From: Paramarasmius palmivorus | Taxonomy: Eukaryota > Basidiomycota > Agaricomycetes > Agaricales > Marasmiaceae | Direction: 5' to 3' | Assembly (NCBI GenBank): GCA_037176845.1 | Contig: JAYKXP010000013.1 | Span: forward strand, 310,001 to 374,000 | DNA length: 64,000 bases | In this document: piece by piece, positions 10,600 through 29,415 of the stretch | Position numbering within the stretch: position 1 is the stretch's first letter | Layout of the letters: the number at the start of each line of letters is the position of its first letter | Notes under the pieces: model-generated | What the model was told of the DNA's origin: nothing | The model's input: the letters and a program-made list of their open reading frames with translations, nothing else | Databases searched by the model: none | Program-made: the position numbers and the translations under genes

Positions 10600-11165
10600 A
10601 TCAAAGAGGATCACCATCCCCTGCCGATCCCGGACCCCTGCCGTAGTGGGACGCGCAACCCCGCGTTTAGAGAAATGGTCTTCCACAATGTCATAGTAGT
10701 TCAAAGTCTCGTTCCAGGGTACAAGCTTCAACATAGTTCTGATAATACCCGATATGGCACCCGGTGGCGAATCCAATGAAATTGAGCTGGAGACAATGGC
10801 ACATGAAGCGAGAGCGTATGCTCAAACCGAGGTGATTACACCGTAGCGAAGCCCCAATCAATGGGTTAGGCTGTCGAGGATGGTATTCCGCATGTGCAGA
10901 TACAGATGACATGGCCGAAGCCACAACGAATCGAATTTCGAATATGCAGTCCTACCACGCCCGCGGCAATGAGACATGTTCTGCACACGATAGTACGGTA
11001 CAAGGTTGGCATACGTGAAGAATGGCCCCACAATCTCTATTTTCCTCTTGAGGTGACTTCTGGTACCATCGAAAGGGCCAGGGATATTAGGATCCGGAAG
11101 CAGCATCTTGCGCAGTTGCTCAAGATAGGAGTATTCAGCGCCGATGAAGAGTGAAGATGATCTGG
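10600..11165 (-). pseudogene. degenerate APH-like kinase fragment (tandem copy)
   Basis: This is a decayed copy of the C-terminal half of the kinase next door. Matching blocks in order are YLEQLRKMLLPDPNIPGPFDGT, the substrate-loop region, HLYLHMRNTILD in place of HFDLHMRNILVD, FIGFATGCHIGYYQNYV in place of FISFIAGRYIWYYTNYI, and GVARPTTAGVRDRQ near 10620. The catalytic Asp of HxDLHxxN is lost, the frame shifts several times, and homology begins abruptly at the block corresponding to QIVFTL, right at the 3' end of the neighbouring copy. It looks like a partial tandem duplication that has since decayed. Exact ends are approximate. Confidence 0.7.
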
Positions 11166-11979
11166 AGTTGATGTCACGTTCTGCCACCAGCAACTTCGGG
11201 CACAAAGAAGCTCCACATCTTCGATAGACAGTCATATAGGACACCCATGGCTATCTGAGCCATCCGTTGACGAACAGGAGGACGCGCAACGTCAGTTGGA
11301 CGCTGAATTACAGGGTGATTCGTGTTGATATGCTGGAATGTTTCAACGTGCAGGATGAGTGGTGCAATGTAGTTCGTGTAATACCAGATGTAGCGTCCGG
11401 CAATGAAGCTGATGAACCATGCAAATGAACGTGGTAGTCGATAAAGTGGATGAGGGGCATTGGCCCACGAGGCAAGATTTGTGTATTCGAACCAAGGTGG
11501 ATACGCTCCGGCATGATCCCAGTCTATAAGCCAAACTCGGTAGTTCTTGTCGACAAGGATGTTTCGCATGTGCAAATCAAAATGGCATAGGACTAGGGGA
11601 CATGATGAATCAAATGTTGAATATCGCAAGACCTCTTTACGTCCTCGATAGTGAAAGCCGATCTGAGCCTTATGATGCTGATCGTCATGCCAAGCTGCAA
11701 GGTCGGCGTACGTGAGGAAAGGCCCAGAACGGTATCCCAAGAAGTGGCCTCCCATGCAGGGCAAGGGTTGCCCAGTACCGTCAAATGGTCCTGGGACATT
11801 AGGGTGAGGGAGAGGTGTCCTGCGTAGTTGCTGAATGTACGAGCGTAAGGTAAAAACGATCTGAATCCGACGCCACCAACTGAGGGAATGCCATGTGCTA
11901 AGTAGGGGACTGCCGTCGATGTAGTCCATAACGATCCAATGGCCATCTCCACTAGAGTGAGGAAGAACGCGGTACACCC

Positions 11980-11985
11980 TTGGCA
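11980..11985. repeat. target site duplication, left (TTGGCA)
   Basis: The sequence TTGGCA directly outside the left terminal inverted repeat is identical to 26523-26528 outside the right one. The uninterrupted kinase copy at 28.75 kb has a single TTGGCA at the corresponding codons. Confidence 0.8.
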
Positions 11986-12009
11986 TAAGAGGGACCCCTC
12001 TGGACAAAA
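11986..12009 (+). repeat. left terminal inverted repeat
   Basis: 24 bp, starting TAAGAGGGACCCC and ending TGGACAAAA. It pairs with 26499-26522 with mismatches at positions 3, 14 and 15 only. Confidence 0.85.
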
Positions 12010-12031
12010 AAACCGGCATTTACTTCGGCCC

Positions 12032-12110
12032 GGAACTTTGACTGTCAACTTCGACCTTCAACTTCGACCTTCAACTTTGACCTGCCAACTTCAACCTCCA
12101 ACTTCAACAT
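12032..12110 (+). repeat. left subterminal array of CAACTTCGACC
   Basis: Five or six degenerate units of about 13 bp (TTCAACTTCGACC and variants) start about 25 bp inside the left terminal repeat. The same 11-bp core occurs, inverted, in the right subterminal array. Such repeats are typical binding sites for a transposase near transposon ends. From about 12110 to 12607 I see no gene. Confidence 0.75.
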
Positions 12111-12607
12111 TCTACTCAACCATCAATCTAACTTTAACTTACGATCGTTGACTCCCGAAACCAGATGGGAGCCGGGGCAAATAGTTTTGGACAATGGAAA
12201 AACAGTATACAGATCAGTGCTTTGCTATGGAATAGATTATCTTGGTGCTGTTACTGTACGGTCGAGTGAGCAAATAAAGATGAAAATCAGGGCGAGGAAA
12301 ATTCAGGACAAAGAAACATAACTTGAATCCAACGAAAATACCCTCTGACTGTCAATCTCACAAGCTATATGTATTAACGCCATAGAAGGGAACGTCCAAA
12401 TGCCGTGTCAATTGCCCATCGTGGGGAGGCTTATCCTTCAAAATATCAAGCGAAATTGCGGAAAGTAGAACACTGTTCCAACTCTACCAGAGTGGTGGTG
12501 TCCGACAGTTCCATAGGTCAATGCACACCACTCTCCGACAGTATGGAATAGCCGACTTGCAACAAAATGCGGCTACTGTTGTTGGTTAACCTTGCGAGTC
12601 GGAATAC

Positions 12608-14151
12608 TCAAAAACAAACAATAATAAAAATCCCAACACCCCCCACCACGTCTAATGCTAGCCCCAGCTGTGGAATATAGAGGTATCCTCCGGTGAATCG
12701 TCCTGATGAAAAAGAAACTGAAACGGTAGTATCACCGTCGTCACAATGAAGGAGAAGCGGTAGCTTGAATACTATAGCTCTGGCATTGTAACAACCACCA
12801 CTTGTATCCATGATGCGTGCCGCTTCTCGTGCAGGGGCCAGAACTGCATGATCATGAGGGAAAAAGACTTCGATGATTGTTGAAATGTGTCGTTCAAGAA
12901 GATCATTAGCATGGTAGTAATGCGCGACGGAAGTAGAAGCACTCGAGGTGTGAATCATGTCCTTGGACTGGAAGAGTCCCTGCAGAAAAATGAGTCAATT
13001 GTGCAAGTAAAGAGTAATGAAATCCAGTACCTTTCCATGATGCCCTCGTTGTTCCCATCCCTCGACAAAGTGATGCACACCAGCCAGCTCTGTTCCTTCT
13101 TTCCCATTGTTTTCACTATACACCAGACCTGGTTCTGGAATGTTGGTTCGCATGACTTTAGCTTCCTTTGGGTCGCAAGTCCATGCTACTCCGTCTCGAA
13201 GAGGAAAACGATGCAAGCTTTTGCCCTTCTTCGCATCTACTCCATGGCGTGCTGCGGTCTGATCTGCTCCTGGGTTGTTCATAGCAGCCATAAAGTGGAC
13301 CAATTCATAGTATCGTTCAACAAGATCTGCCTAATACATCATGAGACGAAGCAGCAAATGATGCATATAATCAGCTTACCGGAAATCCATCATTGATCAT
13401 GTCATCTCCGTGCTCCTTCAGCTCCGTAAATGTACCTATCATGTCATTTGAGTCTGCAAAGGTGTAGCCCTAAACACAAATCTCAAAAATTGACCACAAT
13501 CAGAGATGATACACATACCATTTTGTTCGTTACCCAGGTCTTTGGTGTCTCAGCAAGATAAACCATGATTGTTTCGCCAGTTTCAGGGCACACAATTCTC
13601 GTAGAAGTGCTGATAATGGGAAACCCAGGCTTCTGCATATCTTCAAGCACAGGTTGCAGTCGTGCAAGTTCCTCCATACTTCCAGCATGCTTCTCGAGGT
13701 ATTGAAGCGTAACCTTGGCTTTGAAAGTTGGAATACGCCTTTCAAGATTCATGAGCCTGCGACGGTAGCCCTCTATCAGTCTCGGAATCTGCTTCTCCGG
13801 ACTACGATTAGCCAGCTTCGAGCGTTTCTTGCCAGGCTGGTTTCGAAGATGAGCTGGCGCGTACGATGTTGCCGAGGGGAACGGTACTCCGACAGATCCC
13901 TGAAAATACGTTAGTCCTCGTAATATCGTTTTCGAAGCACTTGCATTTCCGTTATAAGTTTCTTGACCGCTATGTTCGTTCGTGCGATTTTCAGATTCTT
14001 CCTCGTTACCTCTACGCCGGGTATGTCGTTCGTTGTTGGCTATGGCATTTGTAGGTTGATCTTTGTCCACGGTATCGTCCAGATACTATATTGTATAAGA
14101 TTAGCATGCCTGAGGTGTCGTAAGAGTAGTACTTGCCTTTCGTTTAACCAT
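12608..14151 (-). CDS. 2-oxoglutarate/Fe(II) oxygenase-like protein
   Basis: The best start is the ATG at 14151 (MVKRK), joined through a 51-nt GC-AG intron to YLDDTVDKDQPTN; without this exon the frame has only a GTG. The N-terminal part is charged and ends in a Lys/Arg-rich region. Later exons give GYTFADSNDMIGTFTELKEH, ERYYELVHFMAAMNNPG and an oxygenase-like C-terminus: LLLHCDDGDTT with an HxD metal motif, then FSSGRFTGGYLYIPQLGLAL. That block resembles the double-stranded beta-helix of fungal 2OG oxygenases, where it is normally followed by PGDxxxF and a distal His. Here the next block is GGVGIF and the frame stops at 12608 before any distal His, so the enzyme may be damaged or have one more exon. 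The TET/JBP-related group is a possible relative, not shown. Confidence 0.5.
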
Positions 14152-14329
14152 TACGGCCACGTGTACAGATAATGGTGGTCAAGAAGCAAGATGTTTCGGC
14201 AATTAAGCGCCGGAAAGGTCAACCTTGCAAACAGCAACGTTTCGCGTTGGGTTAGCATTCCGCTGCTACCAGACGGGCCTGGATTGCGGCTCTGTCCCTT
14301 CCTTGGGGGGTGTCAAATCTCAATAAAAC

Positions 14330-15956
14330 GAATTATTACAGTAATAATTGACTATGTACGATACAATAGACCTTGATTGAGGATGTAGGAATAAGAAAAG
14401 TGGGTTTTAAAGTGCTAATAGTATTATGTCTGTTGGTTCGGCAGCTGATATGATGTGTCTGGATGATGGGAGCTGATATGGGAGTGTTCTGAGTGTGTAG
14501 AGTAGTGAGCGTAGCTATTTTTAACGTGGTAGTCGTACTAGGGCGAATATGGATTTGGGACGAGGTTGAAGACTGAGCGATATGGTTGGTGCTGGGGATT
14601 AGGATGGGGATTACGATATCCTCCAAATGAAGTATGAGGTTGCGCGTGCTGGTGGTGGTGAGGTTGATAGCGTGTTTCCGGGGGGTAAGAAGAGGCCGTA
14701 ACGCCATGGTGTGCGTTAAGATGGGGGCCATTGTTCGAGGGATAACTATGTTGTACTTGATGATTTAACGGCGGGTGCAGATAGAGGTAATGATGCTGGG
14801 AATGAGCATTTTGTGCTCGAGGTGCGCAACGTCCTTGTACACTGAGGAGCGAGAGTCAGCTACGACTTGGAGTGGGTGATCCTGTAGAAGCGAAACATAA
14901 GTTCCAGTATAAAAACATGAAAACAGGCACCAACCTTTCGAAAGGTAAGACCACCCCAGACAGTCAACCGGGACAACCGTAGTCAACCTCGCATTGGGAT
15001 TGTCAGGTCGAGATGCACGGGAGACCTTGTACATAAGATGGTTCCGCTCTGGACCCTGTTTGAATGGTGTGAACCACTCAATATAAGCCAGATATTTCGC
15101 TGGCTGAACGTTCGGAGATGGGAACCACTCATTGGATGCAATAGGTGGGAGTGTGAATATACATCGAACCTGTCCAACTCGATATCCTGTAGAAGTAGTT
15201 GGTCAAGGTCACAGAAATGAGAAGTACATTGACGCACCTTTTACACCGCTGTTTCCATCGCCATCGACTTTGACGAGCACGGTATCAAAACGACCAAGTA
15301 TTGGCCGACCATACTTGTCAGCTCTACCAGGTTCAGCGTGAATGGAACCCACAATAAATTCCGAACCTTTGGTGATACTATAAGGGTCGTTTTGTGTAAA
15401 TTTGACGCGATGGTACACGGACACCTTCGAAAACGGCACAAACTCCAGCACTTGAAGCTTGATGCGCTGCGGCCGTAAGCGCAGCCCTGGAAAACCTTTG
15501 TTCCAGTGCTCTGGCTTGGGCAACATATTCGGCGAGGGTGTATAAGAAATCCTGAGCACCATATGCAGAGGCAAGCCTTCGGAATGTGATGCTGTTGACA
15601 GAGGGATGACGAGCCATGAGGAGCCTCTATGAGCTGGCGATAGTGTCGACAAAAATGGAGTTTGGGGATATTGAAATCCTTACGGACACCGAGTTCGATG
15701 AATATATGCTTGTTGGCGTTCAAACGTTCAAACGGCGTAGCGCATCGTCCAAACTGTCGAGCGTTTCGCTGGAATGAACGGGATATTGAGAAAGGTAGAG
15801 GAAGTCAAGGACTGCACGAACAGCCCGAGTAAGGCAGTCGGACTGGAGACCGTTGGGGAGACGCATATCGATAGAAATTGGATAGGTGTTGGTCATATAG
15901 ATTGACCTCCCACTCCAAGGCATTCGATGATTTCCAAGAGTGAACCGGTAACCCAT
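14330..15956 (-). pseudogene. Plavaka-type (CACTA superfamily) transposase remnant
   Basis: Several blocks typical of Plavaka transposases occur in the right order but in different frames: AVRAVLDFLYLSQYPVHSSE (about 15820), NKHIFIELGVRKDFNIPKLHF (about 15700), MARHPSVNSITF with YGAQDFLYTLAEY (about 15617-15530), VYHRVKFTQNDPYS, GRFDTVLVKVDGDG (about 15280), then WFTPFKQGPERNHLMYKVSR and TTVVPVD (about 15070-14970). The block between KLHF and ARHPS, normally 50 or more residues, is missing. The N-terminal half with the catalytic core is absent, and the ATG at 15956 is internal. A His/Gln/Pro-rich tail continues to about 14540. It is a fossil nested within the larger element. Confidence 0.75.
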
Positions 15957-16091
15957 GCATCCCTATTACAATGTATTTCATCGTTCAAACTACGGGTACA
16001 CTGAGTCGCTACGTTCGGTCTAAGTACGGGAACCATGGTGGGGAAGATTGGGGGCTGGTGTTGACGGGGCTAGAAATGTAATGGAACGCCT

Positions 16092-17260
16092 TCAATGAAC
16101 GAATGTGCGAATGCTACGTCGAGATAGTATACGCCGTATGGATACCGTGAAAGCTCTGTTGGCGTTGCTGCAGTCGTGGATATTATCTGCGAAATTGGCA
16201 GAGGCAAACTTGTGGAAATTTTGGGCTTCGTGAAAGGAAAGTGGCGACGTGGCAATCGCTTGGGGTCCGGGGGCGATAAATGGGTTGCGATGAGTGCATG
16301 GCGAAGGCGGAATTAGTGTTTTGGGATCATAAGGCAAGGTCTCGAGTAATTGTTAGTGTGGAGTTCGAACAAGCTAGTAGCTTGGGACACACCTAATCCC
16401 AACGACCTCTTTCCCATCCATACTTTGGCTACCTTCTCTCCGGCGTCATATTCCATCCTAGAAATCGAGTTTTAGTAATAAGGTATCGATAGAAAGGAAC
16501 GAAACGTACCCTTGAAGATCTATGGCCGAAAGGACATGTTGGTTTGTCGTCGTCAGGTTGATAAGAGGTATGAGAGTAGTGACTGCGTACCTGCCTTCAA
16601 TAACTCGTACCCAGCACCCCAAACCAGACCCACAACCCTTCTATCTCGATTCGATATCATGACAACGCGTCCGGAACGCGTCGCGCTGCAAAGGGAACAC
16701 TGGAAAGCGGAATGAAAAGGGGATGGCGGTGGTTGGGGGGAAAGAATGGAGCACGGGAAAGTTGTGGGCAAAGGGCCTGTTTGACCCTGACGCGCACGGA
16801 CCAACGTTGGTAAACGTGGTAAACTGACGAGCTTGGCGAGTGAGAGAAGGAGTGCTGTAACGCCATTCTTGTCCTTCCTGTCAATGTCTATCCCATACGA
16901 ATCATCTCGTATTGCGAGAGCTACGTCTCCATCGCATGCAGCCATGTGTAACATCGTTTTCTCGTCTCCAGCTTGGAACCCGCTCATGTTGTCCACCAAA
17001 CCTTGGATCCGACGAAAAGAAGGCGGATAACACAATTGAGAAGAGTTCTGGATGGTTCTACTTCCTCCAGAGTTTGTGTCCCTGACGACTTCTATCTCGA
17101 CAGACAAGCGATCCTGGGTGTCTTTGCGAACATCTCGCCTAAACTGTTCTTGCCTGGAATCGAAGACATGAGATTTATTGGTGAGGAGATTGGGGTCGGC
17201 TTCGAGTTGCTCGAGGAATTCGGGAGGAAGGGAAGGGTGACAAGACTTTGAAGCAGGCAT
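16092..17260 (-). CDS. ankyrin-repeat protein, agaricomycete type
   Basis: The start is the ATG at 17260 (MPASKSCHPSLPPEFLEQLE). Exons read RIQGLVDNMSGFQAGDEKTM, then the ankyrin repeat LHMAACDGDVALAIRDDSYG and IDIDRKDKNGVTALLLSLAK. Later pieces are MEYDAGEKVAKVWMGKRSLG near 16430 and LPYDPKTLIPPSPCTHRNPF down to a stop at 16092. The lead-in before the first repeat resembles a widespread agaricomycete family of ankyrin proteins, some of which also carry zinc-binding domains; I see no Cys cluster here. The middle (16550-16720) is hard to splice with confidence and the gene may be partly decayed. It lies inside the mobile element and points the same way as the oxygenase-like gene and the Plavaka remnant. 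Confidence 0.5.
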
Positions 17261-17538
17261 CGATGCTCGTAGCGGTAAGAGTTGCTTTGTAGATCTGAGA
17301 CAACAGTTCAGTTGAAGCGGCTACGTATGTAAATGGCTAGTACTAACTTCGAACAACACGAAGAAAACCATGGCTTTTGAGCTTGGAATTCTTGAAGCTT
17401 GAACGTTCACGCTCCATCTTCAATTCCAGAGCTACGGGTTTGGATCAGAAAGACCTGTTAAAAGCAAGCAGTTGACCCACATACGAAGATGTCCGCGTTG
17501 ATGAGGCGGTCGGCGTTGAGTATATTGCCTGATGATGT

Positions 17539-18160
17539 CTACGGTTCCCAAGGTGTCTCTGTGCAGAATTTGGTGTCGGAAAGACTGAAATTGCAGAAAG
17601 AGGTGGCCGAGGTGGACAGCGTGAGTTTGCTGGATCGAGATTCGAAGGAAGAGGTGTAGGAAGAGGTGTATGCATAGGTGTCCGAATCTGCGTCGAGGGT
17701 ACGCCTCGTGGTCGACGTTCCCGTGGGTGTCCTCGGCGGTGGAATGTTCTGATTCGTCGTCGCCGGCAGCGTTCTTGCGCGCTTTTCACTCGGTGCTTCC
17801 TCAACTCTCGACTCTTCATCTCTTTCCGCCTCCTTCCTCTTCTCACCGGCAACAGCGGCCTTGCGACCTTTTGCCTTCTTCTTCAAGGGTGGAATCGATA
17901 ATTTGCGCACCCACTCCCAAAGCTCTTCTCCGGGTTTCGAGTTGCGAGTCGGTGAGTAAACCTTTGAACGACCATTGTGACCCCAAGTGATCACGTCCGT
18001 AGACTTGAATGCGCACTATACGGTCGTATAAGCCCTGTCTTTCGAAGATGCTCCGGATGCAGTGATTCAAGATGGTCCTGGATATCAGCGCCAGTGGCAA
18101 CACTATCGGCGTAGACGAATAGAGAGAATTATGGACGTGCAAGGTGCGCAAGGTCCACAA
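17539..18160 (-). CDS. unrecognised Lys/Glu- and Ser/Thr-rich protein, partial model
   Basis: An upstream frame (YADSVATGADIQDHLESLHP) leads to an acceptor TATAG at about 18015, after which the frame reads KSTDVITWGHNGRSKVYS, then PGEELWEWVRKLSIPPLKKK, a long charged stretch and a Ser/Thr-rich tail ending at 17539. There is no ATG at the head of the long frame (it opens at GTG), so an upstream exon is needed. I do not recognise the family. It may be a fragment. Confidence 0.3.
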
Positions 18161-18228
18161 TAGCCGTAAGGAAACTGAAAATGGGTCATCACGTGGTCAT
18201 TGTAATAAAAGCACACGCCGTCGGCTAA

Positions 18229-18932
18229 GTGCTTTTCTCTCAACCACCGCGTCGAGAGAGAGATTCGGCCTCAAGGAACGCACGGGAGATGGCGCCCTTC
18301 CGTTTGCTCTTTGAGGCACGACTAATCCGTGACGTGGTGGTCAAGGTGAAGTTTTATTTGCTTGGATCTTTTCAACTGGATATTGCTGACTTACAAACTT
18401 GGCTTTCAGGCATTACCACGCGTCATACAGAGGGCTATGGGGTTTACGTGCGGACGTTAGCCGCCGTGGATGGACTGGGGGATTTCTTGACTAGCGGACA
18501 TTAGCCGCAGCCAAGAAGGCGTGTTCTCAGAGATCTTCGGTGAGCTAACATATCGTTCTGTTCCGTTTACGGCTTGCTAAATACTATCGCAGTACTATCA
18601 CAGGACTATCGCACCAAGTCGTCTCTTTTACGCATTCCAATTTCAATTCTTCGTACCTACACACCCCATTCCCAGACAGTTCAGTCGTAGAGCTGCACTC
18701 ATATAGGGCCCATATGAGTGCAGCTTGAGACTGGATACGTTGCACGCTTTTATGTATATCGTTGGTTTTGACTGCCTTGGAATATAATCAAATAAACTCG
18801 TCTTATAAAATTTATTTTGCAAACAATCGCGAAGAAATCAACAAAACGCGTTGACGCGTGAAAAAGTCACGTGATGTGCATTTCATTTGCTCAGCCTTGT
18901 TGACTCTGAGCGTTTGAGCTTTTGACTGCATA
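18229..18932. other. centre of the element between divergent gene sets
   Basis: Genes to the left run on the minus strand and those to the right on the plus strand, so this 700-bp stretch is the likely two-way control region. A plus-strand frame of 91 codons at 18229-18504 has no recognisable motif. A strong palindrome lies at 18691-18725. Confidence 0.45.
18691..18725. repeat. palindrome, 14-bp perfect arms
   Basis: AGCTGCACTCATAT and its exact reverse complement ATATGAGTGCAGCT, separated by 7 bp (AGGGCCC), itself nearly symmetrical. It lies about 210 bp upstream of the transposase ATG. Confidence 0.85.
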
Positions 18933-20748
18933 ATGCCTGCACACGAAGACGACATTATTGAGAACTTTCGTGTAGGATATGACCATTTACGAGAAACTGT
19001 CACTCGAGTTCTTCAAACAGCAAACGCCCCTCAAATACCAAATGTCACACGGGAATGCATCCTTTTTTTTCAGCGGATTCAACAGGTGCGTTTGCTGCTT
19101 CATATATTCTAATCCTTTGACTGAGACTTGTTATTTAGCATTACCGAATTTTTAGCCCAGATGAACTGGAGGTCATAACTGAAAGCTTAACAGAGATGAT
19201 TTTGGCCCTGGACGAATCGAGAAATACCATTCACGACCCACCAGATGCTCCCTTTCCTTTTTTCCAACCAGAAGAAAACCATGAACCACAAGGCCCGGGA
19301 CGACCAAGAAAACACATTGATCCTCAGCTTCTCTCCATTGCTGTCAACATGAGGCAGACCAAAAAGCTAGCGCGTATACTTCAAGTTCACACACGGACCC
19401 TTCGCCGACGAGCTCTTGAGCAGAATTTGGTGGAACCAGGAGAGCCCGTCTATGTTGAATTCGTAACTGAGGAAGGACTTGTGATGCGCGTGTACCGCTC
19501 GTCTACTGGCACTGTTTCCGATATCAGTGACGACCAGCTGGACGACTCTATACGCAGCATCATTCAGTCTTTTCCTTCCTTTGGACGACGGTTGATCCAG
19601 GGACATCTCAAGTTCATGGGTATTCACATTCCGAGGTCAAGAGTGGAAGCATCATATGCAAGAGTTGTTGGTCTCCCCTTGCAATCATTTGGAGTTCGTA
19701 CAATCATGCGCCGAATCTATACTGTGCCAGGGCCGAACTCACTCTGGCATCATGATGGTCAGCACGGTATGTTATTCATATAGCCACCACTATTCAACTC
19801 ATAAACCTATTGTTTACTAGGGCTCATCAAGTACAAGATTGTGATTCATGCGTTTGTAGACGGCTTCTCACGTATGGTTACTGGTATCAAGGCCAGCACC
19901 AACAACCGTGCAGATACAGTCCTTGATCTCTTTCTAGAGGCTATCGAGGTTCATGGCTGTCCTAGTCGGGTTCGAGGAGATCATGGAACAGAGAATCTTC
20001 GTGTCGCCGAGTTTATGAATACGGTAAAAGGGCCTGATAGAGGGTCATACCTATTCGGAAAGTAAGCGCCTACTATTCAATCAAGCACAGACTCTAACTG
20101 GTACCTAGGTCAATCCACAACATCCGTATTGAGCGACTCTGGAGAGACGTCACTTTGGGATTCGGTGCAAAATGGAAATACTTTTTTCAGGAACTCGAAC
20201 AGCGTCATGGACTAGAAAGAACAAACTCTTCTCATATATGGCTTCTTCACCATCTCTACCTCAAGCGTATCAACGATGATGCTGTCACATGGGCTGAAGC
20301 ATGGAATAGACACAAAATGTCTCTTCGCGACCAACGGTCTTCCACTCCAACGGAACTGTTTGTGTTTGGGATGATGGAGCACGGTGTACGTGGGATGGGA
20401 GGTGTTGTCAATGTTGATGACGAGGACCGAGTACAATTTTCAACACAAGAGGAACTTGATAGTTACGGAGTGGACTGGGATGATATGGACGATAGTGCAA
20501 TCCTTTCTCATCATAACCAACACAATCCCCCTGACTCAGAAGACTCTACGAATCCCTTTTCTACTCACAGGCCAGAACACTTCTCTCATGTAGAGGTGGA
20601 GGGGCCAGATTGTCCCTTATCTGACGAACACATCCTACAACTAGATGCTTACCTTTCTTCTCTTCCTTACTTTAATAACTTGGACTTGGATAGTGCTAGA
20701 TTACAGTGGAACGCTGCTTTGGCTTTCTGTCAAAATTTATTCATGTAA
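18933..20748 (+). CDS. integrase-core (DDE) transposase
   Basis: Four exons: 18933-19085, 19139-19766, 19821-20061 and 20109-20748, all with GT-AG introns and a continuous frame. The start MPAHEDDIIENFRVGYDHL is followed by GPGRPRKHIDPQLLSIA, a helix-turn-helix-like KKLARILQVHTRTLRRRALE, and a retroviral-integrase-like core. The catalytic triad is visible: Asp in LWHHDGQHG, Asp in RVRGDHGTENLRVA and Glu in IHNIRIERLWRDV. The intervening block IVIHAFVDGFSRMVTGIKAS is also typical of the eukaryotic integrase-core family found in fungi and fish. The C-terminus is acidic. All active-site residues and splice sites are intact, so this is the best candidate for the enzyme that moves the surrounding 14.5-kb element. 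The HECT-like gene begins 173 bp downstream on the same strand. Confidence 0.88.
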
Positions 20749-20795
20749 ACTTATTTTTGACGTCGTAACACGTGTGAACTTGAGCGACGTGCTAT

Positions 20796-20816
20796 AAATT
20801 TGGGGACCCCAAATTT
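20796..20816. promoter_or_regulatory. perfect palindrome upstream of the HECT-like gene
   Basis: AAATTTGGGG, one A, CCCCAAATTT. It overlaps a TATAAA-like stretch and precedes a pyrimidine-rich tract (CCCTTCGGTTTC twice) and the ATG at 20921. Operator or core promoter element is a reasonable guess. Confidence 0.5.
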
Positions 20817-20920
20817 TTCTTTTCATTCCCTTCGGTTTCCCCTTCCCTTCGGTTTCTTCCTCCCATCCTTTCGTTCATTTTTATTTTTATGCCTCTTATT
20901 TATCCTTAACTCTTAAGACC

Positions 20921-23900
20921 ATGCCATTGCGGTGCACGATAGCAAACTGCGACTGTGCAGATTTTCATCCTGAGGTATGTTTGTTGATATCAAACTGCGT
21001 GTTTTTCTTCTAACAGCTTATTCAGGACGGTGCTTTGGGCTCCTGTGTGTGCGATCATGCACATTCCGATCATGGAGCTATCCCTATAAGAACCAATCCT
21101 GGTGTCAAGGGCGGAATACCAGGGCGATGTGAAAGATTTATCGCAGTAAGAGTGTTCTTTTTCATTACTACCAGATAGCCCTCTTGACAGGTTCTCTTTC
21201 CATTAGACTTCGCCTACCTACACCAAGCACACAATCTGCGCCAGACCAGGTTGTGGCGTATCGTGGCTTGGGCATGAGAATGAAGAACGTCACCGCGAAA
21301 CTCAGGCAGCCCCGGGCCCTTCTTCATCAGCCATTTCTCTTCCGCCTCCATCACAACCACCTCTTTATAATCCAAGCTTATTCTCTCGATGGGAAAGACC
21401 CTCATCTAGTATCTCAAGTATGCCTCCTTCGACAGGCACTTCCGCGACCTCTTTGGCATTCGCACTCCCTTTCATTGCTTCAAGGAACATCAGTGTTCCA
21501 CGGGATGGGTCCATTACATTTCAACAGGCCTCAATGGGAATGAATGGACGCAATCTTCCTACTCCAAAGCCGTTCTCTACAGCCGTTCTTTCGGGTCTAG
21601 GACAGCAGCGCAATAGCTCCCGTCCCAACAGTCGCAGCCGAAAACCAAAGCCAAACCATGAGCAACCAACATATCATTCTGGTACCAACACGCATCAACA
21701 GAAGGTCGTCTTTGCAATAGTGCCTGTTACTGTAAGTTACTTCAAGTTGTACAAACTCTTTGAGATAACGAATTGACGTGACCAACATTAGCCATATTCA
21801 ATTCTCCCTCAAGACGATCCATTTTTCGGTTGCCCTCCAGAATTTCGCCTCTATGATGCAATCTTGGAAGAATCGCTAAACGTGATGGAGACCTTTCATC
21901 TCCTCGTTGAGGCCACATTGACCGTCACCTCGCTTGAGGTCAACAATGTTTATGAGCAAATCTACGAAGAGGTGGCCCAGCATTGTAATGCCCATGGCAT
22001 ACAAGTGGCTTCAGAGCCGCTCTCTGTGGAAACCCCTGCCTTTTCACCATTCTTTCTCTTGAAGAAGGGGAAACACCAGATGCAACACGGTACCAAACTC
22101 AATAACAATAGCGCCAGTATGCCACAGAATGCTTGGACTTTGAGTAATCTCAATGCCATGGACAGTTTGTGTACGCTACGACTATCGTATCGCAACAAGT
22201 TATTGATATTTTTAGGTGTGTTCTCATCTCATTGCAGAAAGCTTGACTCTGATCTGTTTGCATAGGCTTCAAACACCGCGTTTCAGGTCCCCTTGCAGAT
22301 GGGAGAACGCATCCATGCTTCGCATATCAGTTCATGGATGCAATTGGAGGTCTTCGTGGACTTCAAACAGGACAGGTTCACTGTCTTGAAGTATGTCCAA
22401 CTGACGATAACGACTCTGGTAGTCCTCCTGAAGAGAGTCCTTCTTCTCTCAGGCGCACACGAAGTCTCTCCATCTCTAGCGTTGACTCTATTCCTCCTCC
22501 GAGTCGACGTAGACGTCTGAACAATCGTCACCTTGATGATGACGATGCCGACTATATCCCATCACGGTCAACAACTCCTGCCATGTTGTCTACACGCCAA
22601 TCTCAACGTCATGCTTCATCTTCCAATACTTCGTCGTCCAATGCTTTATCGTCGTCCAATGCTTCATCATCGTCCAATGCTTCATCATCGTCCAATGCTT
22701 CATCATCGTCCAATGCTTTATCGTCATCCAATGCTTTATCGTCCAATGCTTCGTCATCCAATGCTTCATCTTCCAATGCTTCATCATCCAATGCTTCATC
22801 TTCCAATGCTTCATCGTCCAATGCTTTATCGTCATCCAATGTACCAACAATCGCATCAGCAAACGAACATGTACCAATATTGATCGACCTTACGTCTCAT
22901 GCTAGTATCATTCCATCGCCAACTCATCCCACAGAGTCATCCGCTGGCTCTCCGACTCCTGCATCGCCTCCACGTGTAACAACCCTTTGTACCCCAAGAG
23001 CATGGAGTATAGAGCTCCAGAGGCTGGCAGGTCCAATGTCTGTAGAGACATTGAATATGACTGCACCTATGTCGCGCTAAGCTTCAAAGACATTTCTAGG
23101 ACTTATCAAATGTCATCTGACTTCATCTCCCCGTCCTATCATTCCAGACGTCAACGTTGTAAACCTTTAGATGGCACACATATCTTATGGGCTGAAGTCA
23201 ATTAAAGTGTATGTTCTCCAACATGTTATGGTTTTCTGAAACTCGATCTAATGGCTTTTTTAGTGGGCCAGGAAGTGGCATAGCTGTCCAGCGCAACGTT
23301 GTTTGCCAGCACTCTGGAGATGTGTTCACCTTAGAACCAAATACATATCTCGAGCATCGGTATGATGCATCTGTCTCCTGGATCTTCCAAAGGTTCCCTA
23401 GTGAGGATCGCCTTGCTCATGCACAGGCTTTTGGAGCCCTGTTGGCATTGCACCTAATATGGTACAAAGCCACTGTAACCGGAGGTCGATCCTCTTTTCT
23501 ATATCGTCATGATACGCAGTCTCGACTTTATCATCGAAAATCCCGGGATGATAGAGCCATTTCGTCAAGATCTCTATCAAGAACTCTCTCGTTGGCCACG
23601 TTCTATCGAAGACCGTAATCTCGTGGACTTTAGGTCGCTATCTTCAACTCCTCATAGACGCTTGTTGTCAAATTATCTTGCAGATGTCACAGTAAGGAGA
23701 TTCTTCAGACTTCTATTACCTCTTCGCAGCTGACTTCTCTATTTACAGATGAACACTCTCAGTCAATGCTCAAGTCGCAACGAGTGGGCAAACTACACTG
23801 CGCAAATATATGCTGGGGCACTCTTCGGAACGACCCCTTCAAAGGTCAACAGCGGCGAGGAGATTGCAGCACTGAGGAAGGGTTTCAACGTCCCAATTAG

Positions 23901-24548
23901 TACAGGTACCAACCTTTTAGACGTGAGTTATGGTGCTACCCAATGTGATTCATATGTTGATTCTTCCTTAGTGTTTTAGCGAGCTCAACACAGTCGCCCT
24001 TGTCAACTCCTTCCGTGGAAAATTCATTTCATCGTCCCGACTCCTGATAGATCACATTCGCTATCCTGGTCTCGCAACGTCACCAAACGATACTTTCATT
24101 CCGGCATTCAAGCAGAAGCTTGATCAATACCTGAATGGATCAGGACATCCTCGGTCGCTAGTGGGTAGCCTTATATCTGTCGAAATGGGCGAACGAGACA
24201 ACTATCCCCTATACCGATGTGAGCGCCTCCTCCTTCAAGCCAGAGGGACTTTGTTACTTCCATTTGAGGACAACTGGTCCATCGAGGTACGCAATGTGGC
24301 AGACTGTGTAACACCTTGACTAATAATGCCGATCCTAGATCAATTTTCACTTCAATCCCCCTGACAATCGGGAGAAGGTTGTATACAGGCAATGTTTCAA
24401 CACCGTTGATATTACGGTTCCTCCCTGGCTCATGTCCAGTATCCTTAACCCCAGTGCTGCTGGAGACGAAGACGTAGAGTTCTGTTCATTTTTTCACAAG
24501 ACTGTTATTCCTTTCGAAGGTTCCACTAGTGACTACGAGATTGCTTGA
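20921..24548 (+). CDS. large protein with HECT-like C-terminus, companion of the transposase
   Basis: The start is the ATG at 20921. The first exons form a Cys/His-rich head (MPLRCTIANCDCADFHPE, then GSCVCDHAHSDHG and ICARPGCGVSWLGHENE). A Pro/Ser-rich linker leads to FFGCPPEFRLYDAILEESLN, an Arg/Ser stretch and a coding repeat of Ser-Asn-Ala (22608-22840). After further introns come RYDASVSWIFQRFPSEDRLA, QAFGALLALHLIWYKAT, a block rich in helix formers and, at the end, YRCERLLLQARGTLLLPFED, NWSIEINFHFNPP, VYRQCFNTVDITVPPWLMS and stop at 24548. The last part resembles the C-lobe of HECT ubiquitin ligases, with CFNTVDI at the place of the catalytic Cys. This is a by-eye match and should be tested. 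Splicing between about 22970 and 23260 is uncertain. Confidence 0.55.
22608..22840 (+). repeat. in-frame Ser/Asn/Ala minisatellite
   Basis: About 16 units of 12-18 bp built on TCGTCCAATGCTTCATCA, encoding SSSNAS-type repeats in the HECT-like gene. Variation is almost entirely in units of three bases, so the frame is preserved. It is probably a flexible linker. Confidence 0.8.
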
Positions 24549-24636
24549 TACCGTTCAAGCTAGGTTTACTGTATCGCACTTTACCTTAGGTATCCCTTAA
24601 TTGCTCTCGCTCATCAGGAAATTCGCACACGCATGG

Positions 24637-24780
24637 GATGTATGGACCATACATCTCCATACATCTCCATGCGCGGACCCGGATGTATGGAGATCCGAGG
24701 AATGCATAATCTCCATGCACATGTATGGGAGATGACTGCAGCCCTCCATACACCTCCATGCTTCCATGCATAGGATTTGG
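24637..24780. repeat. CTCCATACATC palindromic cluster, left
   Basis: Dense repeats of CTCCATGCA and CTCCATACA. They include a 13-bp perfect inverted repeat (ATCTCCATACATC and GATGTATGGAGAT) around a core containing CGGACCCGG, and ATGTATGG-A-CCATACAT. An inverted counterpart is at 25769-25893. Confidence 0.65.
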
Positions 24781-25768
24781 TAGGGGTACTAGCTTGATCT
24801 CGCCATGGATGAAAAGTATGAAAAACCGGTTTATTGGTATGTATTACGATACACTAGATATATGGCGTAGCTATAATTAAATACGGCCCTCTACTGGTTA
24901 CCTTCCATTAGCTTCACTCTCAACACCAGTTACTGACAATGCCGGAGATAAAGGGTTACTGCGTGAGCTGCATGAATACACATAAATGATAATCAACACT
25001 TACCGGAACCAAATGTGACAGTTAGGTTGAGGCCGATGGCAGAGGGGAAGTCTAACAAGGAAAACTTAGTGAAAGGGAATTTCGCGCGGAGAACTGACGA
25101 CGTACGAAATAACACAATCGTTGACGGATGGGGAACCTAGAACTTGGGGTTAGAAAGGGTGATTCGGTCGAGATGAAAGCTGATGAAAGACGTACCTAAA
25201 CCATAGCACTATCCATCTCAGTGCGTACACAGTACCTAACCTACATCTTCATTATCACCCAATGAGCACCTGTGGTACGAGGGTAAGCCACCGTAACATC
25301 TTTCTGGTGATAGCTTGACTTACGGTGTAATGAGAGTCGGGTGAGATTGAGGGGGGAGTGCGAGAGAATGTTGAGGGAATGCAAAGGCGGCGCCATAGAT
25401 GATGGGATTGGGAAAGAAAGAGACGCGGCTGCGGAAATGAAAAATTTTCGTATCAACAAAGTCACGACACCGATTTGAAACTCCGATTGAATTCCTACTC
25501 GGGTTTTCGAACTTGCCTCGACTTGCCATCTTATGCCCAACTTATGCCGATCGCAACGTTGTCCAGTGCTCAACTCGACACTAATGGCATATCAACGTTT
25601 TTTTTTCGATACCAGGCCGTGGAACTTGACTCGGAAGGGGAAAAGATTGTTGACTATGGAACAGCTTTTATATGTCCAGTGCGCTAATCAATCTGAACAC
25701 TAGGAATTGACGCATTTTCAACTAGACCTTATATAAAAATCTTGTAAAGTTACAGTAGAGATCATACG
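24781..25768. other. no supported gene between the two CTCCATGCA clusters
   Basis: A minus-strand frame of 110 codons (25241-25573) contains an ATG for MAPPLHSLNILSHSPLNLTR and possible short introns, but no recognisable domain and no convincing end. It could be a decayed gene. Below 25200 several possible splice junctions exist (for example around TFPSAIGLNLTVTFGSG) but I cannot build a gene. Confidence 0.4.
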
Positions 25769-25893
25769 TCCATGCACTCCATGCACCCATGCACCCCGCG
25801 TATGGGAGCTTTTGATCAATTTTTGATGAAAACCGGGTCCGGCGCGTATGGAGGTATGGGGTCTATGCGCTCCATGCGCTCCATGTGTCCCAT
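25769..25893. repeat. CTCCATGCA cluster, right, inverted
   Basis: Repeats of CTCCATGC, CCATGCACC and CTCCATGCGC, with CCGGGTCCG facing the CGGACCCGG of the left cluster. Read inwards, both clusters go ATGGGA, CCATAC, CTCCAT, CGGACCCGG. Confidence 0.6.
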
Positions 25894-26235
25894 AACGATG
25901 TGAATTTGCTGATGCTTTCTGTTCTTGCTCGCTTTCTGTCCATGCTTCGCGCAACATCCGATATAATTGCTGTCGGTTATACTACTTTTTACTTGCAATG
26001 CATAGTCCTGTATCTGCTTGTTGACACTAATGCCTGCTGTATTTCTTGTGCCAAAAATATATCAGTAGTTCTGTTGAAGTTGCGCAGGCGAGACGTTCGT
26101 TGTAGTCAAATGCGAAATTACAAGGGAAAATTACACATCATATTGTCGAACATATCATACAAGGGAAAGTTACATCGTACTTACATTAGAGTCGATCATA
26201 TCATGCCAAGGCAAGGCTCAAAGTGTCACAGTCAA

Positions 26236-26470
26236 AGGCGACTTGCACAGGTCGAAGTTGAACATGCTGCAGTTGAACTTGAAGTTGAACATGCTCCGGT
26301 CGAAGTTGGACATACGCCGGTTGAAGTTGGACGTGCTCCGGTCGAAGTTGGAAATGCCCCGGTTGAAGTTGAGGATGCCCCGGTTGAAGTTGAACATGCT
26401 CCGGTTGAAGTTGGACATGCTCCGGTCGAAGTTGGATGGTGCAGTCGAAGTTGGGCATCCGTGAGAACTC
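26236..26470 (-). repeat. right subterminal array, 21-bp units
   Basis: About nine tandem units of 21 bp (GTTGAAGTTGGACATGCTCCG and close variants) that are open in all frames, giving spurious ORFs on both strands. On the minus strand they read CAACTTCGACC, the same core as the left subterminal array, so the two arrays are inverted with respect to each other like the terminal repeats. Confidence 0.8.
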
Positions 26471-26498
26471 GTTGATGGTGATGTTGACCTATCGATAA

Positions 26499-26522
26499 TT
26501 TTGTCCAATGGGGTCCCTCATA
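26499..26522 (-). repeat. right terminal inverted repeat
   Basis: 24 bp. Read on the minus strand it starts TATGAGGGACCCC and ends TGGACAAAA, pairing with 11986-12009. Confidence 0.85.
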
Positions 26523-26800
26523 TTGGCACGAGAATGGAAGTGTGCTGTCGAACGTACTCCATGACATAGGCTTCACTTCGGTTGTTGACGTGTTTCACCA
26601 CGAGTGCATATGGCCTGAGGCGATAAACTGGTGCTGGGCCCAATACATCCAGCTCGGGTATTTCGCCAACAACGTCTTTGCTACAGTCAATACCCTCGAT
26701 GAGCGTTTGAAGCTTTTCGTCGGATAACGATTGTATGGACGAAGGAAGATCTCTCCTGAGTTCATAAGTCTTGAGATCTCACCCCGAGACTAACTCATGC
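26518..26800 (-). pseudogene. APH-like kinase, N-terminal part split off by the transposon
   Basis: The frame reads SLSDEKLQTLIEGIDCSKDV, EIPELDVLGPAPVY, the ATP-binding stretch PYALVVKHV and VMEYVRQHTSILVP, then ATA TGA, where the stop codon comes from the right terminal repeat. It matches the copy at 28.8-29.0 kb block by block (YALVVKHV and MEYVRQHTSILMP there). The match ends exactly where the left flank of the element resumes the gene at MPRVYRVL. Upstream of about 26760 the frame is disturbed by small indels, so the 5' part is decayed. Confidence 0.8.
26523..26528. repeat. target site duplication, right (TTGGCA)
   Basis: Identical to 11980-11985, directly outside the right terminal repeat. 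Confidence 0.8.
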
Positions 26801-28371: not shown

Positions 28372-29073
28372 TCAGTGTGTGTATGAGCTTGCCAATGATA
28401 ATACACACCTGGTAACAGAACGCTTATGAGAATGAAACGTTATCTGCGCATGGTGGTATTGGCGATTATGCCATCCTTCGAGAGCGGCGTAGAATTGGCC
28501 TGCTGTCTCGTGCTTCCCATCCAAGTGGCTGATGGTACAAGGTAGGGTTCTGGTACAATCAGAAGCCTCTGGAATAGTATGGTCTGGAAGGTGCGTCCTG
28601 CGTAGTCGCTGAATATAGGAGTGTAGAGTGAAAATGACCTGGAGCCGATGCAGCCAACTCAAGATACTCCATTTTACATGTAGAGTATCTCCCTCAATCA
28701 AGTCCATGACAACCCATGATCCTTCTTGACTGTGATGTTGAAGTACACGATGGATTCTTGGCATAAGAATGGAAGTATGTTGCCGGACGTATTCCATGAT
28801 ATCCGTCTCGTTGCGGTGGTCGCTCTTGACATGTTTCACCACAAGTGCATACGGCTTGAACCAATACACTGGCGTTGAGCCCAGGAAGTCCAATTCCGGT
28901 ATTGCAGCTATGTCCTCCTCCCAGTCGATGCCCTGGATTAGGTCGGATAGTTCTTCGTCGGAAAAAGAATCTATCGGTGAGATTTCACCGTGCAAACCAG
29001 AACTTCTGAGAGAAAAGATTAGAGCGTGCTCTGCGATTGTAAGAGTTTGTGGTACTGACCTACGGGAGGCCAT
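28372..29073 (-). pseudogene. APH-like kinase truncated before the catalytic loop
   Basis: From the ATG at 29073 (MASRRSVPQTLTIAEHALIF) the frame runs through ELSDLIQGIDWEEDI, PYALVVKHV, MEYVRQHTSILMPRIHRVLQ, SWVVMDLIEGDTL and LQVIFTLHSYIQRLRRT to FHSHKRSV, then about 15 unrelated residues and a stop at 28372. The HxDLHxxN loop and the DWD motif are missing, so it cannot be an active kinase. It is useful as the uninterrupted reference for the kinase split by the transposon: its TTGGCA codons correspond to the insertion site. The truncation point lies next to the start of the Pro/Ser-rich gene. Confidence 0.65.
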
Positions 29074-29415
29074 CGTTGACGATGGTGGATCAGCCTGAGG
29101 GGAGGCTCAGAGAGTGAGTGAGGGGCTTAGTGTCACAGTGGAACTTGAGACACGTGTGACGAGATCCCCTAAACTTGGTGAATGCCATTGCGAACGCTAG
29201 CCAGTACAAATCCAGGATGGGAAGCTTTGTGGACGCGGAAAAGCAGATCCTGCTCGTTGCTTCTTCGGTGGGCTCGCTGGCTATGCTAAAAACAGGAAAA
29301 ACTTCGCACAGAGAAGGAAAACCTTACCCGGACCTCGACCGGGTCTCCGACGAACTTTGAACGCCCCTATGTAAACGAAAGGTAATCATCTGTGACCATC
29401 TTTTATCTTCGTGCC
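29074..29415. other. divergent intergenic region
   Basis: It lies between the truncated kinase (minus) and the sirtuin (plus). No supported gene. Confidence 0.5.

Follow-up and report, generated by a model that had tools for sequence, protein, structure and literature searches.

The window analysed here is a 64,000-nucleotide stretch of contig JAYKXP010000013.1 (C13 in our genome searches) of Paramarasmius palmivorus, a fungus of the Marasmiaceae (Agaricales) that has been reported on cacao and palms (PMC8581569). Between positions 11986 and 26522 of the window lies a mobile element that measures 14,537 bp from one terminal inverted repeat (TIR) to the other, or 13,232 bp without a nested insert, and pieces of a gene for an APH-like kinase stand on both sides of it. 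The element holds a gene for a DDE transposase, a disrupted gene for a 2-oxoglutarate (2OG) dioxygenase that we term TET/JBP-like, a second, intron-rich cargo gene and further segments.

A transposon inserted in a kinase gene

The left TIR (11986-12009, plus strand) begins TAAGAGGGACCCC and the right TIR (26499-26522, minus strand) begins TATGAGGGACCCC. The two agree at 21 of 24 positions, a repeat search reports them as an inverted pair of 25 nt with 88% identity (11985-12009 and 26499-26523), and both ends carry TA..TA termini. Immediately outside the TIRs the letters read TTGGCA at 11980-11985 and again at 26523-26528, forming a 6-bp target duplication. A first-pass annotation of this DNA had described both the inverted ends and the duplication, and both are confirmed. 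Just inside the TIRs lie clusters of the motif GTYGAAGTTG, which occurs four times in 12010-12150 (cluster at 12036-12120, minus strand), every copy in reverse, and nine times in 26200-26498 (cluster at 26237-26457, plus strand, with a 21-bp period), every copy forward. The subterminal clusters of the two ends are therefore in inverse orientation, whereas the 14-kb middle of the element contains the motif once. Within positions 10001-31000 this is the single 24-bp inverted pair with at least 21 of 24 matches and identical 6-bp flanks, and none of 20 mononucleotide shuffles of that region contained such a pair.

The kinase gene that flanks the element runs on the minus strand. Its C-terminal piece (11177-11985, 271 residues; Pfam APH, E 3.9e-10) abuts the left duplication, and the open-frame part of its N-terminal piece that lies beside the insertion (26523-26778, 85 residues, ending at 26524) abuts the right one. 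We aligned both with the translation of a paralogue at 28375-29106 (minus strand), to which the N-terminal piece corresponds over residues 43-116 (61%) and the C-terminal piece over residues 114-230 (48%). When the pieces are joined with one copy of TTGGCA the frame remains open across the join, in agreement with the earlier claim that the insertion splits one kinase gene. The same annotation had pointed to an uninterrupted copy of the gene at 28.75 kb. That copy does show the uninterrupted site, but it is a diverged paralogue whose frame stops before the C-terminal part and for which a Pfam scan with a limit of E 0.1 gave no match; it is a guide to the empty site, not an empty allele. Searched against its own genome, the right flank found diverged matches on contigs C52 and C129 and the left flank found none. 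We also note a frame at 10858-11250 on the minus strand which by eye resembles a further APH-like kinase fragment beside the split gene, and kinase paralogues seem to be clustered around it.

The transposase and other copies of the element

The transposase gene (18933-20748, plus strand) was spliced by hand from exons at 18933-19085, 19139-19766, 19821-20061 and 20109-20748. It encodes 553 residues without an internal stop, identical over their whole length to the annotated protein VNI00_004734 of P. palmivorus, and matches the Pfam families rva_4 (E 1.9e-64) and rve (E 1.4e-9). A protein search yielded 506 relatives at E up to 1e-3, and residues D257, D314 and E349 are invariant in all 13 transposases that we aligned, picked from 120 listed. 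Its 57 matches in the genome represent at least 20 loci when grouped by hand. No recombinase appeared among the Pfam matches of the subset of window frames that was scanned.

The published marks of the IS3EU superfamily are TA..TA termini, usually 6-bp target duplications and an IS3/IS481-like DDE transposase (PMC10045372). All of these are present here, with duplications of 6 bp at two sites (TTGGCA, and GTCGAA described below) and a DDE transposase of the rve or IS3/IS481 kind. IS3EU elements are known in fungi from Ganoderma (PMC8955403) and Phlebopus (PMC12411881). The first-pass annotation rightly recognized a DNA transposon, bounded by TIRs and a 6-bp duplication and carrying non-transposase genes; its further suggestion of an undescribed type did not hold, as termini, duplications and transposase fit published IS3EU, and IS3EU elements carrying a TET/JBP dioxygenase and an alpha-kinase have been published from rusts (PMC12730594).

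Further copies were sought in the genome assembly (68.3 Mb, 393 contigs). The left end recurs on contigs C199 (98%) and C42 (78%); C235 and C179 carry further copies of the right end. A TIR pattern allowing up to 3 mismatches was found at 10 places, nine of which begin with TA; apart from the window's own two ends these are 8 other places, against none with a reversed control, so that the recurrence which the first-pass annotation proposed to look for was indeed observed. The recurring ends stop at the same point, and their flanks differ except for the shared duplications. A looser pattern gave 70 places compared with 34 for its reversed control. Separately, TIR-like places with 2 mismatches at C12:259895, C12:276781-276803 and C233:47139-47161 sit where the elements on C12 and C233 described below might be expected to end; their letters were unreadable, half of such places are expected from the reversed control, and we did not count them as ends. 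A search of a plasmid collection with the window gave no match.

Counting only alignments of 250 nt or longer, C199 is 98.1% identical to the window (9,422 nt), C179 98.7% (1,348 nt) and C235 95.8% (5,861 nt); the transposase of the C235 copy holds several stops. Because the copies are this similar to the window, the alignments suggest that the element moved fairly recently. C199 covers a copy from its left end as far as window position 23752, and C179 covers a copy from that position to its right end. Both contigs end within a nested insertion at that position, where their tails overlap by 3.57 kb at 95.5%, and given this mismatch C199 and C179 are either one locus broken by assembly or two haplotypes. 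Comparison of flanks between the contigs revealed a second 6-bp duplication, GTCGAA, which forms the last letters of the C199 left flank and the first letters of the C179 right flank. Other copies share the end points of the window copy, with a different duplication at this second site, and do not end elsewhere as the first-pass annotation had considered. In a search with the joined C199/C179 target site (394 bases, join at about base 200), 27 of the 40 matches listed cross the join at 66-77% identity; a match counts as crossing if it starts no later than base 180 and ends no earlier than base 220, and 2 of the 40 are the joined site itself. The target of this second insertion is therefore a multi-copy repeat with uninterrupted relatives.

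The dioxygenase gene and other cargo

Between the left end and the transposase lies the TET/JBP-like gene (12443-14151, minus strand), which is disrupted near its 3' end. We spliced it by hand from exons at 14085-13519, 13469-13380, 13330-13031 and 12979-12650 plus a remnant at 12572-12443, omitting the disrupted stretch; its start at 14151 was set after a model of the C199 copy (P0002). The spliced product found 10 relatives whose names assign them to Paramarasmius, Marasmius and Mycena. Eight relatives were scanned with hmmscan, and five match Tet_JBP (PF12851.13) and no other Pfam family, at E values from 1.4e-5 to 0.017; a precomputed PF12851.14 annotation is present on 2 of the 10. In TET/JBP dioxygenases an HxD...H motif forms the iron site and an arginine binds 2OG. 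The corresponding residues H311, D313, H359 and R379 are invariant in the seven relatives that we aligned, and the window gene encodes HCD, the part downstream of it being disrupted. HxD/E and H are likewise the active-site residues given for TET/JBP enzymes in PMC12730594. A ten-sequence profile finds CcTET in the PDB at E 0.17-0.18. Since the Pfam and profile matches are weak and a structure model was unusable, we label the predicted enzyme TET/JBP-like, and do not regard it as a proven member of the family.

The dioxygenase part was found at four loci, on C13, C199, C233 and C12, of which C13 and C199 are copies of one element, and all four lie 1.5-5.0 kb from an IS3EU-type transposase. Their layouts differ: the dioxygenase gene lies upstream of the transposase and divergent from it on C13 and C199, downstream in the same direction on C233, and downstream in the opposed direction on C12. 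A match on C47 was left out of this count, as it covers residues 199-283 of P0001 only, outside the Tet_JBP match. The stretch C47:367041-385722 nevertheless brings together within 19 kb an IS3EU-type transposase, a region that resembles the N-terminus of P0001 and an oppositely oriented alpha-kinase; it may be an element closer to the layout found in rusts. A Tet_JBP search of the genome missed the window's gene and reported two places, C207:15504-15701 and C207:60999-61196, each at 23.9 bits and below the cut-off; this pair of equal, sub-threshold scores hints at another TET-type family in P. palmivorus. Among the relatives, P0007 of Mycena sanguinolenta is annotated as a SET9 histone methyltransferase and aligns with the dioxygenase family through its N-terminal part, reflecting either a gene fusion or an annotation error.

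The remaining contents of the element are less readily named. The second cargo gene (20921-24546, plus strand) is intron-rich and was spliced by hand. It occurs in the genome only on C13, C199, C235 and C179, all copies of the same element, and no relative was found outside these copies. The 926-residue product has no Pfam match, none of the 7,993 candidates scored was a homologue at an E of 1e-3 or below, and in the PDB only 4pw0 was matched, at E 0.17 in the C-terminal part. By eye it resembled a HECT-type protein; no search supports this and we leave the gene unnamed. An in-frame 15/18-bp tandem repeat at 22611-22841 codes for a run of SSN(A/L) units within it. Open frames at 16553-18196 (minus strand) are shared with the C199 copy at 99% and have sub-threshold ankyrin matches only.

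A 2.3-kb segment at 14223-16543 is wholly different from its counterpart in the C199 copy (C199:57497-59727), so that unrelated segments of 2.2-2.3 kb lie between the same break points with about 99% identity on the sides. The window's segment looks like a possible Plavaka transposase remnant; the four of its frames that were scanned gave no Pfam match. Part of the length of the element is nested insertion and not cargo. A 1,303-bp insert at 24612-25914 with CATCAG..CTGATG ends and a CT duplication is absent from the C235 and C179 copies, and C199:51744-56063 is a full 4,320-bp long terminal repeat (LTR) retrotransposon with 312-bp LTRs that are 100% identical and a CAACC duplication, inserted in the dioxygenase gene of the C199 copy. 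The 1,303-bp insert is PlavakaB-like by its termini, PlavakaB elements having CATCA..TGATG termini and 2-3 bp duplications (PMC12730594), and differs from them in being only 1.3 kb long with no transposase identified within it.

Interpretation and comparison with known elements

Taken together, the matched ends, the 6-bp duplications at two sites, the recurring end points, the whole DDE frame, the inverse subterminal clusters and the split gene demonstrate an inserted element. We consider it highly probable that the APH-like kinase gene was split at TTGGCA by a DNA transposon of the cut-and-paste type, in all likelihood a member of IS3EU, and that this transposon carries a broken gene for a TET/JBP-like dioxygenase whose product is predicted to counter silencing through DNA methylation. 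Judging from structure and homology, the transposase would recognize the TIRs together with the subterminal repeats, excise the element and link it to target strands offset by 6 bp, and insertion at TTGGCA would have divided the kinase gene. In intact relatives the dioxygenase may oxidize 5-methylcytosine in the DNA of the element that encodes it, which would keep the genes there expressible, as weak homology and the association with transposases suggest; weakening of silencing through methylcytosine oxidation has been proposed for other TET-bearing (TET+) transposons (PMC12730594). The window copy does not itself display this function because its dioxygenase gene is disrupted. As its transposase frame is whole, it may still be able to move, while relying on relatives for any anti-silencing effect. 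More tentatively, IS3EU elements of mushrooms may carry a fourth, unnamed type of TET/JBP dioxygenase as an anti-silencing module. The idea of a dedicated module comes from the position of all four detected loci, each of which neighbours a transposase of the IS3EU type; on this reading the three gene arrangements would reflect capture or movement several times within the superfamily.

Several observations weigh against the interpretation of the element as an IS3EU with a TET/JBP-like gene. Only for the window copy do the two ends lie on a single contig, pairing of ends succeeded for just two insertions (the window and C199/C179), and a search for mates with the same 6-mer on fetched stretches gave no convincing partner for 8 ends. 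The end on C42, one of the ten, begins with GA and not TA. No empty allele of the kinase site, with one TTGGCA in an intact gene as the first-pass annotation had envisaged, was found in the assembly. Regarding the superfamily, the assignment was made against published marks of termini, duplications and transposase. The published TET+ IS3EU of rusts have TIRs of over 30 bp with TAYGG..CCRTA ends (PMC12730594), as opposed to 24-25 bp in the window, where the TIRs start TAAGAGGG / TATGAGGG and lack TAYGG; no alpha-kinase was detected in the window element either. An exon-wise search located alpha-kinases at no fewer than six places in the genome. None of the places listed is on C13, C199, C235 or C179; one lies on C47, some 17 kb away from a further transposase of the IS3EU type. 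Finally, the dioxygenase gene of the window is broken, and its spliced product matched no Pfam family even with E values of up to 1 allowed. Three of the eight relatives scanned have no Pfam match either, and all Tet_JBP matches score under the curated threshold, the best reaching 24.8 bits where 34.9 are required. In the PDB search an unrelated designed repeat protein ranked ahead of CcTET, the full-length relative P0003 of Marasmius sp. AFHP31 alone found no match, and a structure model of P0003 reached a mean pLDDT (predicted local distance difference test score) of 33.9, which is unusable.

These last points bear most directly on an alternative in which the transposon is the same and the TET-like gene encodes a 2OG dioxygenase of another kind, with RNA, a protein or a small molecule as possible substrates and no part in DNA demethylation. 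We regard this as unlikely. The sub-threshold Tet_JBP matches, the marginal profile match to CcTET and the absence of fold evidence would all fit it, whereas Tet_JBP is the sole Pfam family among the five relatives with any match, the HxD/H/R set is invariant, and TET/JBP genes are known as cargo of fungal transposons (PMC12730594). Less probable still is that the transposase belongs to a related, separate superfamily such as GingerRoot, IS481EU, Ginger or an unnamed rve/rva_4 clade. Placement is by published marks, and IS3EU/GingerRoot and IS481EU are not separated in the tree of PMC10045372; TA..TA termini with 6-bp duplications are nevertheless marks of IS3EU/GingerRoot, while the same paper gives duplications of about 4, 15 or 25 bp for IS481EU, with TNT..AYA ends in T. 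vaginalis, 4 bp for Ginger1 and 4-5 bp for Ginger2. That there is no element at all, only chance inverted repeats or an assembly join of two kinase paralogues, has a negligible probability: the lack of an empty allele in an assembly of 393 contigs would agree with it, but no shuffle held such an inverted pair, the ends recur elsewhere, the kinase parts join at the duplication without a change of frame and the second site has its own duplication.

Starships are large cargo-bearing mobile elements of fungi with a tyrosine-recombinase captain instead of a DDE transposase. The window element resembles them in being large and bearing cargo, and differs in its DDE transposase, its TIRs and its much smaller size. 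Kyakuja and Zisupton elements with AG-type TET genes likewise bring TET-type cargo into Agaricomycetes, but their transposases are unrelated, their duplications measure 7-8 bp, and AG-type TET is reported in PMC12730594 only on these two. The TET carriers of Agaricomycotina named there are Kyakuja, Zisupton, EnSpm, Plavaka and Helitron2, IS3EU not being among them. With IS3EU (including GingerRoot), compared by description, the window element shares TA..TA termini, 6-bp duplications and an IS3/IS481-like DDE transposase, and it departs from them in having several further genes and a length of about 13.2 kb without the nested insert. It is a case of a DDE transposon shown to move more than 13 kb and to break a host gene, and one in which nested insertions make the element seem richer in cargo than it is.

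The closest published relatives are the TET+ IS3EU of seven rust species and Tuber indicum, in all families of which the TET gene is stated to lie between the transposase and the alpha-kinase (PMC12730594). No TET-bearing IS3EU from agarics was found in the literature searched, which took in PMC12730594 outside its supplementary tables. As the published TET+ IS3EU found come from rusts and T. indicum and IS3EU itself is known in fungi, the superfamily is a known one and, as far as this literature goes, what is new is the cargo (a diverged TET/JBP-like dioxygenase), the host and the layout. The window element and these relatives have in common an IS3EU-type transposase, a TET/JBP or TET/JBP-like gene and a 6-bp duplication, while the window element is found in an agaric host, has a dioxygenase below the Tet_JBP cut-off, and belongs to a group whose gene order varies within one genome. 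If our interpretation is right, mushroom-forming fungi join rusts and a truffle as hosts in which a TET-type enzyme is paired with IS3EU, here an enzyme that has diverged beyond the reach of the standard TET profile, and this pairing offers a testable case of a transposon that bears its own counter-defence against DNA methylation.

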